In this document: piece after piece, positions 1,580-7,056 of the stretch
Numbering within the stretch: position 1 is the stretch's first letter
Layout of the letters: every line of letters starts with the position of its first letter
Assembly (NCBI GenBank): GCA_018402665.1
Contig: JAGYIN010000001.1
Location: 124,001 to 188,000, forward strand
Source: Schleiferiaceae bacterium
GTDB lineage: Bacteria; Bacteroidota; Bacteroidia; Flavobacteriales; Schleiferiaceae
Direction of reading: 5' to 3'
DNA length: 64,000 bases
Translations under genes and position numbers: made by a program
Notes under the pieces: generated by a model
Seen by the model: the letters and a program-made list of their open reading frames with translations, nothing else
Database searches by the model: none
Told to the model about the DNA's origin: nothing

Positions 1580-2142
1580 TTCAGGATTTTTCTCGCTACG
1601 CTCGAAAGATCCTTTCTGCTCCGAATTCCGAACAAAACAGCCCAAAGCCTGCCGCGCCGAGCATCATTCGCTTTATGCCCCGACCCAACTTCGATGCAAG
1701 CATCGCGTGGTTCCCGGTTCGATTTCAAGGATTTTCTCGCTGCGCTCGAAAGATCCTTTATGCTCCGAATTCCGAACAAAACAGCCCAAAGCCTGCCGCG
1801 CCGAGCGCGGCTGCTTTTTTTATGCCCCGACCCACTTCGATGCAAGCATCGCGTGGTTCCCAGTTCGATTTCAGGATTTTTCTCGCTACGCTCGAAAGAT
1901 CCTTTCTGCTCCGAATTCCGAACAAAACAGCCCAAAGCCTGCCGCGCCGAGCTATCGTATGCTTTATGCCCGACCCACTTCGATGCAAGCATCGCGTGGT
2001 TCCCAGTTCGATTTCAGGATTTTTCTCGCTACGCTCGAAAGATCCTTTCTGCTCCGAATTCCGAACAAAACAGCCCAAAGCCTGGCTGCTTTTTTTTATG
2101 CCCCGACCCACTTCGATGCATGCATCGCGTGGTTCTGGGCAT
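1580..2142. repeat. Four tandem copies of a ~144-bp structured non-coding repeat
   Basis: Four head-to-tail units start at about 1580, 1724, 1870 and 2013 (lengths 144, 146, 143 and about 130). Each opens with TTCAGGATTTTTCTCGCTAC (small changes in copy 2), runs through CCGAATTCCGAACAAAACAG and CAAAGCCTG, then a short variable patch, then GACCCACTTCGATGCAAGC and a CATCGCGTGGTTC block. Each unit has two inverted repeats: GGATTTTTC...GAAAGATCC and CGATGCAAGCATCG (CGATGCATGCATCG in copy 4). Copy 4 ends in a longer nested inverted repeat (ATGCCC...GGGCAT, 2098-2142). Unit lengths are not all multiples of three and ORFs appear in several frames on both strands, so I read it as non-coding. The 1503-2191 gap holds this block and two flanking terminators. 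Function unknown. Confidence 0.9.
1795..1821 (+). terminator. Terminator-like hairpin inside repeat copy 2
   Basis: GCCGCGC-CGA-GCGCGGC followed by TGC and seven T. Only copy 2 forms this full stem, because its variable patch reads GCGGCTGC. Copy 4 keeps a T-run without the stem; copies 1 and 3 have neither. It looks like an intrinsic terminator by structure; there is no plus-strand gene just upstream that needs it. Confidence 0.55.
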
Positions 2143-2174
2143 AAAAAAAGCCTGCAACTTTCGTTGCAGGCTTT
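2143..2174 (-). terminator. Rho-independent terminator downstream of tRNA-Arg
   Basis: Read on the minus strand, AAAGCCTGCAAC-GAAA-GTTGCAGGCTTT is followed by a T-run. It lies about 18 bp past the 3' end of the tRNA gene and ends its transcript before the repeat block. Confidence 0.85.
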
Positions 2175-2191
2175 GAGCTTTTTGCTCTTAG

Positions 2192-2265
2192 TGACCGAGG
2201 AAGGATTCGAACCTTCAACCGCTTGATTCGTAGTCAAGTACTCTATCCAGTTGAGCTACACGGCC
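2192..2265 (-). tRNA. tRNA-Arg (anticodon ACG)
   Basis: The reverse complement folds into a 74-nt cloverleaf: acceptor GGCCGTG/CTCGGTC (a G-U at 2-71 and an apparent U-U mismatch at 6-67), D-arm GCTC/GAGT, anticodon stem CTTGA/TCAAG with loop CTACGAA, a 5-nt variable loop, and T-arm GAAGG-TTCGAAT-CCTTC. The loop places ACG at positions 34-36, which reads CGN arginine codons after A34 is deaminated to inosine. The CCA end is not encoded. The gene has its own terminator and a good -7 box upstream. Confidence 0.93.
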
Positions 2266-2667: not shown

Positions 2668-5600
2668 TTATTCTTCAATGCCAAATCTGCGTTTTAATAA
2701 CATGATTTTTCCTTTTCCGGCAAGATTGTAGGTGAATGCTGGAGCATCCCCTTTGGCCTTGACGCTCCGGTCCTTAGCATCTTTTTCTAGGATACCTTGA
2801 TTGAAAGCTTCATCACTACTGCGAATACTCATGACAATCCCCTTGAACGAAAGGTAGAGGTAGTCGGTACCGTTGTCCAGATAGAGAATGATTTCACCGC
2901 CACGTCGACGTTCCTTGACTTCAATAAGACACGAGACTTCTGCGAAGACAGGCTGATCGTAGATGTTTTGAATGGTCGCTGTGCCCTCGCTAATAAAGCT
3001 TTTGTAGCGCCCACTATAGGTTAGGTTCACTTTACTGAGCACTAAAGTTTTGCGCAAGAATCGAGGGAATTTTCCTTCGTCTTCATGCAATCCTATATTT
3101 TCCAGGAACTCGCCACCGTCTTTTTGACCAAGCAATGCATAGATGCCGTCGATGTATGCGGTTTCATCAGCTCGAGCAGAACCGGAGCCATCATAGAAGA
3201 GTTGTGCTACTGCCTCCCACGCTTTTTCATCAAGGGGTGCGTCTAAAGTCATTACCCCATCAATACTGACTTCGTCTTCGACAAGATCATGGCGCACCGC
3301 ACCTGCTAAAGCTGTCGTCACGGCGCCTGTGTTGTCCAATACTTTAAGCGGACCTGTACCGTATAAATCACAATCGTAGTTATGGAAAATCAAATACGGA
3401 TCTGGAAGTGTGAAATCTTTGAGCTTTTCGTAGGTCGTTACCACATAGCCCTGCTCCTGTCTATCGTAATAGAGAATTCCATCTGCAGAAAGCACTTCAA
3501 TATCTGCGCGGTCCGCATATTTTGATAAGAAGTTGGAGTGACCGCCTAAGCTGTCTTGAGAGATGTAGACGCCATTGAAGGTATTGTCGTTCAGCTTATT
3601 GGGATCGTTGTACGGAAGTTCAATGACGATGTCCTTCGGATCAATGAAGCTTGCGATGTCGAACCAAGTGGTTTGAAGGTTATGGCAGTCGTGTTGAATG
3701 AGGATGGAGCCCATGAAGAACATCGGTAATTGGTCCGCATGAAGTTCCACTTTACCGCGGTAAGCAAAATATGGGCTAATGTAAAAATTATCGGTCTCGT
3801 CAATGATCGCGCGACCTAAAGTTACACCCGCAGTATCTGGCGCAATGCTTTCAAATGCGATGGGCCAAATACTTTCCTCTTCATCAATGTAGTCGTACAT
3901 GCCATGCGCAGTGTAGCGGTACTTACCACGAATACGCGCGGTTGTTTCATAGAAATTATGAAGCTTTGTGAATCGGTCCGCTAAAATTTTAGAATGCTCA
4001 AGCGGGTCCATTTCTGCGTTAATACGGATCACGACATAACCGCTATCAGGATAAATAGAAGCATCCGCAACATCTATTTGAGGGACATCAAAAGCCTCTA
4101 GGATGCTCGGAGCAAGTGCAAAGCGGGCGTAAGCAGCTGTAAAATCTAAACTGTCTTGACGAGGATGGGTACTAACGAGGTAGGCTTGATTATCTTGCGT
4201 ATGCTTGATATCAACTGTCGCTTTAGCCATATCCCACTCCGCATGATCCATGTAGGCCATGTATTGATTCGCGGGGAATTCTAGCGTACTATAAGGGTCC
4301 AATTTATTGAAGACGCCCTCCTTCTTATCAAAATCTACGTCAGCTGACGAGGCTAACATTTGAAAGGCCCATTGCTCGTCGTCGCTATTTGTTTTCACCC
4401 TAAAATCTTGATCCGCTGAAACAAACGAACGACGGAAAAACTGGTAACCCTCCACTTCACTGTTGTGTTTGGCTGTGCTGTAGCGCAATTCGCCTGTACC
4501 GAACATTCCGCGACCACCATAGGTTAACGAACCTTCACCTGCAACTTCCGGAGCACCATAGAGTGCAAAAGGCGTTTCAAGAGTTTCAGCCCGGATGTAA
4601 TCTTCATAGGGCATCCAAACGAAGGGATTGCTCGTGCCAGAGGCATACGGATACCCGAGACCCAGGGTGCTTTCTTCAACGGCAAAGGTGCTTGCACGCC
4701 CACTCGCTTGAAGTGGGAAGAATAAGATATCGGGACAAACCGTATGGCTTTGTAAGTAATCCAATGCACCTTCTGCATGTAATCCTTGATTGGACAAGGC
4801 TAATGAACCGTTGTAGGTTCCGGAGCCCTTATAGGCTGGTGTTGGCGGCATCTGAGTTGAAAACCCTAAACTGTAATCCGGCATGACGGAGAGCGGCTGA
4901 GGAAACACAGGAAAGATATCCCCACTGTGAAAGGTGGCATCAAACAAAATACCGTCAGTGGTCGTATTATCAAGTGAATCAATGGTAAACGGCTCTAATG
5001 CCATGTAGAAATTAGAACGCTCGTAAACGCCGTCGTGAATGCGCGGATGATCGTAGTAGACAAAAGAGTTGTTGAGCGCTTGGAAAATAGGGTATTCAGG
5101 ATGGTAATCCTTAGAACTCTTGTTATCCGGCTCATCGATAAGGAGCTGTCCTTGCAAATCCTGGAGAACCGTCTGAACATTAACCAAAGCTGCACGCTCA
5201 CCAGGCTTAGGATTGAACTCCTTCACTTTAAAGCGCATGGAATCGATCTGCGGCATGTCTATTTTAAAGTAGTCGTAGTCGAATGAATAGCCTTGCCCCC
5301 AATAACTGAAAAGCCCGGCATTGATCCGTCCATCAAAATCGAAATCCATACCCTCGTTCACTGTGATGCGACCGCCGCGAGGGTAGAGATTTACCTCTTG
5401 AGAATCGCTTACTGCAATACTTGAAATGCCAGCGATATCCATTTGATAGTTTAATAAGCTGACCTGCGCATTGTTGCCATTGGGAATGCGAGAAACGAAT
5501 TGGATAACATCGTAATCCCGCTTGCCTTCCCAATTCAATAAATATTCAAACAACCGGTCCGTCAAACTAATGGTCTGTGCATCCACATCAAAAGTCACAA

Positions 5601-7056
5601 ACCCCTGTATGGCCATGTGGTAAAGGAAAAATTCGCCTTCTTCCGGTGCCATACGAAGCGCATAGGTCAATTCCTGCAAAGGCACATCCTCATACCCATA
5701 ACCGTACGCAGCGTCACGCAATTCGCGCAATGGATGGTTTTCCTGAAGCCCCGCAATTTCCTCCATTCGCTGGACCCTGAAATACTGTTTGCTTTCAAAG
5801 ACTGCCGCTTGTTCGGAACCGAGATTAAGGTTCTTAAAGCTAATAACAGGCGTTCCTTGATTCCAAATCAATTGGTCCACACTCATGTCTAAGGCGTGGT
5901 AGGAATCCGTAAAAGATGCCAATCCCAGACCCGTTTCAAAGCGAATGACGCGCACCTGTCCCAAACGGGGATCGTAACGCAATTCGCAATAGGGATGATA
6001 AATACTATCTGTACCTAAATGGGCAATAACTTCTGCACGTTTTGAACTGAGTAAGCTGTCTTTAAATAGAAAGCTCCTTCCTTTCAGTGTAAGTATGGTG
6101 TCCGATTTATAAGTGAATTTCAATGCGGCCAATGCACTATCTGAAGCTGTTCCATAAAATTGGGCACCAGCAACCCCTAATCCACCCTTAAAATGCACTT
6201 CCGGATAGAGATTTTCTAGAATATAGTCGTTGCGGTACGTAGTGAATTTCGGGAAACGTGCATCCTTTAGGTTTACCGATGAAACGCGCTCTTCCAGCAT
6301 ACCTTGTAGCGGCTCGTCGTAGAATTCATAGGCATACAGTGTAACGCTATCGGCTTTAAAATACGTCTGATTCGCTTCAAGTGTCCACTCCCCCAATTCC
6401 GCATACAATTCCTTTTCGAGCTGACCCTCACGGGACCAGATGATGGTTCCACCCTGCGCTTTGAGTACGCCTTCTTGAGGGTAAAAAACACCATTAACTC
6501 CTACAACCATGGTGCTATCCCCTCCATTGAGCCCCACTATATCCACCATTTCCATGGTAAATTGCGGCACCCCCTCAACAAAATTTAAGGACCACAGACT
6601 AGCCGGCGCCTTCCAAACCAATGCTCCAGGTTCAGAGAATTCATGTTTTACAAGATTGCGGTAGAACTGATTTTGGTAGGTGCGGATCCTGCTCGAAGGA
6701 TTCTTTTTCGAAAACCCATAAAAATGCTCGAGGAGTGCTCCAAAACGATCGAATTCCTCGTTTTCTGCCACATAAATGAGGGAACGTAGGAGTGGCTCCC
6801 ACGTTTGCGCATCGTCTAGTCGTTTGCGTAACAGTTGGTTCGCATAGTCTAGCCAAAGGTCTTCTTGTTCGAAGTCTACCGCAGCCAAAAAATTAGGCAC
6901 CAAAGAGTCTTTGAAAACACCGTCCATTTCTTTAGGAACAGAAATGAGCTTTTCAAACTCCTCAGCGAACGCATCTAAGGAAGAAAAACGGGTCACTTTT
7001 TGTGCCTGAAGCCCAAAAGAAACAATCAATGCAAGAAGCAACCCAAATTTTTTCAT
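2668..7056 (-). CDS. Large secreted protein of unknown function (1462 aa)
   Basis: I do not recognise this protein. It begins with a clear Sec signal peptide (MKKFGLLLALIVSFGLQAQ, likely cleaved after QA-Q). The rest has no transmembrane stretch and reads as beta-rich, with many short alternating segments and repeated patterns of aromatic-Gly-Thr strands (e.g. LTLKGRSFLFKD, YKGSGTYNGSLALS). No catalytic motif, lipobox or T9SS tail is evident; the end RRFGIEE is not a sorting domain. It lies between prmA (3-bp gap) and clpS (25-bp gap), so it is probably co-transcribed with them. A periplasmic or outer-membrane structural role is possible but is only inference. Confidence 0.85.
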   Translation of the reverse strand: MKKFGLLLALIVSFGLQAQKVTRFSSLDAFAEEFEKLISVPKEMDGVFKDSLVPNFLAAVDFEQEDLWLDYANQLLRKRLDDAQTWEPLLRSLIYVAENEEFDRFGALLEHFYGFSKKNPSSRIRTYQNQFYRNLVKHEFSEPGALVWKAPASLWSLNFVEGVPQFTMEMVDIVGLNGGDSTMVVGVNGVFYPQEGVLKAQGGTIIWSREGQLEKELYAELGEWTLEANQTYFKADSVTLYAYEFYDEPLQGMLEERVSSVNLKDARFPKFTTYRNDYILENLYPEVHFKGGLGVAGAQFYGTASDSALAALKFTYKSDTILTLKGRSFLFKDSLLSSKRAEVIAHLGTDSIYHPYCELRYDPRLGQVRVIRFETGLGLASFTDSYHALDMSVDQLIWNQGTPVISFKNLNLGSEQAAVFESKQYFRVQRMEEIAGLQENHPLRELRDAAYGYGYEDVPLQELTYALRMAPEEGEFFLYHMAIQGFVTFDVDAQTISLTDRLFEYLLNWEGKRDYDVIQFVSRIPNGNNAQVSLLNYQMDIAGISSIAVSDSQEVNLYPRGGRITVNEGMDFDFDGRINAGLFSYWGQGYSFDYDYFKIDMPQIDSMRFKVKEFNPKPGERAALVNVQTVLQDLQGQLLIDEPDNKSSKDYHPEYPIFQALNNSFVYYDHPRIHDGVYERSNFYMALEPFTIDSLDNTTTDGILFDATFHSGDIFPVFPQPLSVMPDYSLGFSTQMPPTPAYKGSGTYNGSLALSNQGLHAEGALDYLQSHTVCPDILFFPLQASGRASTFAVEESTLGLGYPYASGTSNPFVWMPYEDYIRAETLETPFALYGAPEVAGEGSLTYGGRGMFGTGELRYSTAKHNSEVEGYQFFRRSFVSADQDFRVKTNSDDEQWAFQMLASSADVDFDKKEGVFNKLDPYSTLEFPANQYMAYMDHAEWDMAKATVDIKHTQDNQAYLVSTHPRQDSLDFTAAYARFALAPSILEAFDVPQIDVADASIYPDSGYVVIRINAEMDPLEHSKILADRFTKLHNFYETTARIRGKYRYTAHGMYDYIDEEESIWPIAFESIAPDTAGVTLGRAIIDETDNFYISPYFAYRGKVELHADQLPMFFMGSILIQHDCHNLQTTWFDIASFIDPKDIVIELPYNDPNKLNDNTFNGVYISQDSLGGHSNFLSKYADRADIEVLSADGILYYDRQEQGYVVTTYEKLKDFTLPDPYLIFHNYDCDLYGTGPLKVLDNTGAVTTALAGAVRHDLVEDEVSIDGVMTLDAPLDEKAWEAVAQLFYDGSGSARADETAYIDGIYALLGQKDGGEFLENIGLHEDEGKFPRFLRKTLVLSKVNLTYSGRYKSFISEGTATIQNIYDQPVFAEVSCLIEVKERRRGGEIILYLDNGTDYLYLSFKGIVMSIRSSDEAFNQGILEKDAKDRSVKAKGDAPAFTYNLAGKGKIMLLKRRFGIEE

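Follow-up and report, generated by a model that had tools for sequence, protein, structure and literature searches.

What is a four-copy repeat of ~143 bp doing at the 3' end of a tRNA-Arg gene, and is it best understood as a recombination site, a small RNA or a by-product of replication? The question is raised by a locus in the window, a 64,000-nucleotide stretch of a Schleiferiaceae genome (GCA_018402665.1, contig JAGYIN010000001.1, positions 124,001 to 188,000), where the initial annotation, made from the letters alone, had described a structured tandem repeat beside tRNA-Arg. Tandem Repeats Finder (period 143, 3.9 copies, 89% matches) and a repeat search of the window (four copies spaced by 144, 146 and 143 bp; direct repeats D1/D2) agree on this description and place four units at 1580–2135, between a sulfate-permease (SulP) gene and the 3' end of tRNA-Arg(ACG). 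The tRNA (2191–2265; ARAGORN; Rfam tRNA, 63.9 bits) is encoded on the minus strand, so that the array lies on its 3' side, and is preceded at 2285–2311, also on the minus strand, by a sequence (TTG-16-TATATTTG) which we take to be a promoter of the Bacteroidota type. The neighbours in the window are SulP and ClpS; beside clpS, an open frame of 1462 aa without a Pfam match occupies 2668–7056 on the minus strand. A genome-wide search of the 1.95-Mb draft assembly (26 contigs) found the unit at this locus only, which dismisses a genome-wide dispersed repeat.

Comparison with related loci identifies the unit as a small (~95–210 bp) non-coding element of tRNA-Arg 3' ends in Bacteroidia. Each unit is an imperfect palindrome whose right end is formed by the tRNA 3' end and its terminator. 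Read towards the tRNA, it comprises, in many cases, a duplicate of the final ~20 nt of the tRNA that ends in GGATT; hairpin A, which opens with the tRNA's own T-stem sequence (GGATT-stem-triloop-stem-GATCC); the box GCTCCGAATTCCGA, often followed by AAG; t', which mirrors the trailer of that tRNA; in most units, a plus-strand terminator; a long central hairpin, whose loop is often CAAG or CGAG; and the tRNA's own terminator and trailer, followed by the end of the tRNA as far back as the T-loop. Upstream members of an array mostly consist of the left half only (hairpin A, box, t' and first hairpin), and the last unit, adjacent to the tRNA, is complete.

In the window, hairpin A of unit 1 (GGATT...TACG...GATCC; 1584–1612) folds on the plus strand and is homologous to the hairpin that co-varies across genera, as described below; its counterparts in units 2 (1729–1756, loop TGCG), 3 (1874–1902) and 4 (2017–2045), and the conserved boxes at 1618–1631, 1762–1775, 1908–1921 and 2051–2064, were located on the same strand by sequence match. 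Unit 2 carries the array's only intact rho-independent terminator (hairpin P2, 1788–1821, plus strand; −18.2 kcal/mol plus a T-run). The short patch in which the units had been seen to differ is the stem of this terminator, which unit 2 keeps intact; other sequence has taken its place in units 1 and 3, and in unit 4 it is truncated. The complete last unit continues with t' (2065–2084, plus strand; left arm of P1, inverted repeat I10, matching its own trailer), the central long hairpin P3 (2091–2149, TTTTTTTATGCCC...GGGCATAAAAAAA; inverted repeat I2, with a predicted fold), the tRNA-Arg gene terminator P4 (2142–2171, minus strand; from sequence and fold), and the tRNA trailer t (2172–2190, minus strand; right arm of P1, from inverted repeat, own-trailer match and fold). 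Its right end is the tRNA-Arg 3' end up to the T-loop (2191–2207, minus strand; GTGACCGAGGAAGGATT on the plus strand), as judged by comparison with loci L063, L092, L125 and L011. The two hairpins named by the initial annotation occur in each of the four units, unit 4 differing by a single substitution (CGATGCATGCATCG); 0.03 and 0.19 matches, respectively, are expected from shuffles.

The annotation had also proposed a covariation check, which came out in favour of a conserved structure. The inner stem of hairpin A varies and yet stays complementary (AC/GT, GC/GC, AT/AT, TTTGCC/GGCAAA), with 92.9% of positions paired and a covariation score of 0.259 as compared with 0.090 in shuffles that ignore the relatedness of the sequences (0 of 500 as high). 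Since the pairs co-vary, the structure is conserved. Whole units fold into an outer t'/t stem enclosing three hairpins, or a close variant, with z ranging from −3.2 to −14.5. The mirrored trailer follows its own locus: the summed match of t' to the trailer of the same tRNA was 577, against a mean of 348 in permutations that ignore relatedness among genomes of one genus (0 of 20,000 as high); errors of extraction, with four loci left out and several arms misread, should make the test conservative. Genome G472 has two loci, each with its own matched arms (GAATGAAAAACT/AGTTTTTCATTC at ACG, GAAAGCAAAAAC/GTTTTTGCTTTC at TCT).

Immediately to the left of hairpin A, six genomes (G122, G116, G119, G676, G040 and G019) carry an exact or nearly exact duplicate of ~20 nt from the 3' end of the tRNA, ending in GGATT, and two of them (G119 and G676) have it in every full unit; G411 has a tRNA-end-like stretch at this position, with its tRNA off the contig. 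Direct repeats of the target tRNA end on both sides of the element were seen at L063, L067, L092, L125, L011 and L008; they are absent from the window, where the unit starts keep only AGGATT.

The distribution of the unit was approached in several ways. An exact-pattern scan of 84,980 genomes gave matches mostly in Flavobacteriales, with named records including Schleiferiaceae, Owenweeksia, Crocinitomicaceae and Salibacteraceae. Within the genus and family of the window genome, homologous single or double units occupy the same position 3' of tRNA-Arg(ACG) in many genomes, and several relatives carry no unit. A covariance model of the unit start (hairpin A and box) was then trained solely on loci from the family of the window genome and from three further Flavobacteriales records, partly from loci found via their tRNA-Arg flanks (g3, g11), and run blind to tRNAs on 395 Bacteroidia genomes, mostly drafts, at E ≤ 1e-4. 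It returned 20 loci outside the window's genome, in other Bacteroidia families, 15 of which adjoin an intact tRNA-Arg with anticodon ACG (G415, G597, G461, G665, G511, G776, G573), TCT (G619, G676, G415, G665, G776, G472) or TCG (G645, G632). Four more (L131, L135, L141, L132) lie at contig ends or at a tRNA-end remnant that an island has seemingly cut, or consist of a lone unit starting from the T-loop; the last locus (G446/L142) is coding and a false match. A second model was run on a sample of 396 genomes from the phylum; it contributed two more tRNA-Arg loci, in G472 (ACG) and G607 (TCT), and none in that sample from outside Bacteroidia. No unit 3' of a non-Arg tRNA was present among the loci found by either model, and dispersed copies away from tRNA-Arg ends are almost absent.

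The unit is thus a feature of tRNA-Arg 3' ends in scattered Bacteroidia, and other tRNA genes apparently lack it. The repeat family linked to tRNA loci that had been suggested as one identity for the array is borne out in this narrower form; rather than a sequence unique to one locus, without covariation or conservation, the search of related genomes brought to light relatives across the class. Among the discarded matches, a Sulfotelmatobacter pattern match (L043) appears to lie within coding sequence, and order-level model matches with E ≥ 8e-5 had no tRNA nearby, the six viewed looking coding. A lone unit in G653 (L132/L145) starts exactly at tRNA T-loop sequence (..CGAATCCTGATGGGATCAC) with no adjoining tRNA body.

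At least a dozen genomes carry arrays. Where a genome has several units, the closest relative of a unit is another one from that genome in 24 of 25 cases, which shows that amplification took place separately in each lineage; the array in the window is a lineage-specific tandem amplification of the tRNA-Arg-end element. Shared oddities suggest that units may also spread between tRNA-Arg genes within a genome, as the same rare AGA-loop hairpin occurs at both the ACG and the TCT gene of G776, and the units of the two G472 loci are mutually nearest outside their own arrays.

How such an element is propagated is less certain. The reading favoured here, over a small RNA or a neutral palindrome, is that of an element akin to an attachment site, whose folded strand is recognised and which propagates at tRNA-Arg 3' ends; its probability is put at about 0.45. 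The restriction to tRNA-Arg genes of three anticodons, the T-loop-bounded end copies and the patchy distribution fit recombination at the tRNA 3' end, and the structure-based covariation suggests that the folded strand may be what is recognised. On this model, a folded strand, RNA or single-stranded DNA, would be recognised; recombination would take place between the T-loop and the tRNA-Arg 3' end; each copy would regenerate a functional tRNA 3' end; the short direct repeats and palindromes could give rise to additional units through unequal exchange or slippage; and the trailer arm would be re-matched to every new host tRNA locus. Several observations speak against it. No integrase or transposase gene was recognised beside a unit in the loci examined, nor, by eye, any recombinase among the ORFs of L034 and L038, and the neighbours in the window are those named above. 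Viral contigs gave no match to three exact patterns and plasmids none to one unit, and a phage- or plasmid-borne element was rejected on these grounds. Units of 100–200 bp are, furthermore, very short for ordinary site-specific excision, and the near absence of copies away from tRNA-Arg ends, and the window's retention of AGGATT only, also count against it. A bolder form of the attachment-site reading, which we consider doubtful, is that these units would constitute a previously undescribed class of gene-less, minimal site-specific elements that act as a folded strand, insert only at tRNA-Arg ends, restore the tRNA end, re-match their arm and have spread class-wide.

Islands may share these tRNA genes. 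Dispersed copies in Crocinitomicaceae Bin_13 were considered as a sign of mobility and set aside, since the 3' end of tRNA-Arg(TCG) is exactly where the C9 copy stops; integrase-arm-like repeats come next, and an island has probably cut the unit off from its tRNA. Repeats resembling TTTGCAAATTGTTTGCAAAT or ACTTGCAAATATACTTGCA stand next to tRNA-Arg 3' ends at L038 (~4520–4580), L135 (~1740–1790), L121 (~1710–1750) and L056, and look like integrase arm sites of such islands.

The strongest competitor, though in our judgement somewhat unlikely, is a structured small RNA or 3'-processing module, as for the E. coli tRNA-linked repeats of the rrB type, with tandem copies raising dosage. The product could be a plus-strand RNA made of hairpin A, a single-stranded box, a trailer mimic and a terminator, or else a read-through RNA of the tRNA strand in which the terminal tRNA-end copy guides processing. 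Plus-strand terminators of differing sequence follow the box in most units, and the box is conserved amid diverging flanks. The T.G pair of hairpin A, a G.U wobble on the plus strand and an A-C mismatch on the minus strand, is kept in 23 of 23 cases, and the loop is often TNCG-like on the plus strand. In E. coli, rrA, rrB and rrF are expressed and described as sRNAs, with in vitro binding to Hfq and CsrA (PMC8144298). However, no conserved plus-strand promoter (TTG...TAnnTTTG) was found upstream of the units, the left neighbour seems to point away from the unit in several loci, and on the tRNA strand the strong terminator P4 stands between the tRNA-Arg gene and the array and is thus met before the unit. 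In addition, units 1 and 3 of the window are without a terminator and the distribution is very patchy. An amplified small RNA gene, as the initial annotation had put it, is thus possible, and the attachment-site element is favoured. The binding array that the annotation had offered as a further identity is conceivable.

Less probable again, and by our estimate improbable, is a neutral origin in which convergent terminators were turned palindromic by template switching during replication and serve no function, the same switching keeping t and t' alike and slippage of the palindrome yielding tandem copies. The palindromic anatomy, the independent arrays in each lineage, the locally matched trailer arms and the degenerate terminators of the window would all be expected. 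A neutral palindrome accounts for the arrays, but not for the box and hairpin conserved between families, the arginine restriction or the ~20-nt tRNA copies ending at the T-loop.

That the array is an artefact of a metagenome-assembled contig is very improbable. The genome is a draft in 26 contigs and the contigs of relatives do break within such arrays (G119, G052, G472, G687), but here the array lies well within a 467-kb contig, its units are non-identical, and arrays recur in unrelated assemblies, including the single-contig genome G665. Ns or contig ends at or inside the element beside tRNA-Arg were encountered repeatedly (L058 in G021, G023 C82, G008 C5, G119 C75, G052 C113, G472 C48), which suggests that draft genomes under-count arrays. 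A repetitive protein-coding gene, the least probable reading of all and one that the initial annotation had rightly doubted, has in its favour that frames stay open on both strands, and is dismissed by unit lengths that are not all multiples of 3 (144/146/143), by long ORFs across the array without a Pfam family at cut-off (DUF1363 sub-threshold, 16.9 vs 24.2 bits), and by relatives that keep the structure and not the frame.

Repeats linked to tRNA genes have been known in E. coli since 1978, and their origin and function are little understood. As described in PMC8144298, the E. coli tRNA-linked repeats (TLRs) comprise 22 units at ten loci, each ending in 18–19 bp of the upstream tRNA or rRNA gene. 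These repeats (the 178-bp repeats of tyrT, and rrA/rrB/rrF) are the known class that the Bacteroidia units most resemble, both being short and non-coding and standing, singly or as several tandem copies, immediately 3' of a tRNA or rRNA gene. The duplicated final stretch of 18–20 nt of the gene, typical of TLRs as described there, is present or nearly so in G119, G676 and G122, with AGGATT only in the window. Unlike the TLRs of that description (PMC8144298), the Bacteroidia units adjoin tRNA-Arg genes only and possess a hairpin and box that span families, a palindrome of convergent terminators and a mirrored trailer matched to the locus.

Among known RNAs, Rfam at gathering score recognised only the tRNA in the window and no unit in seven other loci; leader-peptide matches near the window were sub-threshold and apparently derive from terminators. 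The Clostridiales-1 RNA (RF01699), which has been reported from Clostridiales and the human gut as a likely noncoding RNA (PMC2864571), likewise has an outer stem around three hairpins and a long hairpin with a GCUUGC loop. Two units of L144 (G676), at 631–715 and 794–962, scored 43.4 bits for one and 36.4 bits for the other against the full RF01699 model on the tRNA strand, the best, in one genome, falling short of the gathering score of 48 bits, and six other loci tested gave no match; a distant link between the two is possible. The units also recall the attL/attR scars of tRNA-targeting elements, in that tRNA 3'-end copies from the T-loop onward flank the unit and that tRNA-Arg loci in Bacteroidia appear to carry islands too (L038, L135). 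They differ from such scars in having no integrase gene, no kilobase-sized cargo, a conserved fold and box, and tandem arrays.

Nothing on the motif, or on similar repeats in Bacteroidota, was found in the open-access literature, and with no Rfam match at gathering the arginine-tRNA-linked family seems undescribed. Its motif and model are now defined and can be scanned in any genome or RNA-seq set. A second TLR-like family, in another phylum and restricted to tRNA-Arg, makes it possible to study the origin, spread and action of such repeats by comparison, with the conserved box, the co-varying hairpins and the trailer arm that follows its tRNA as points of reference.
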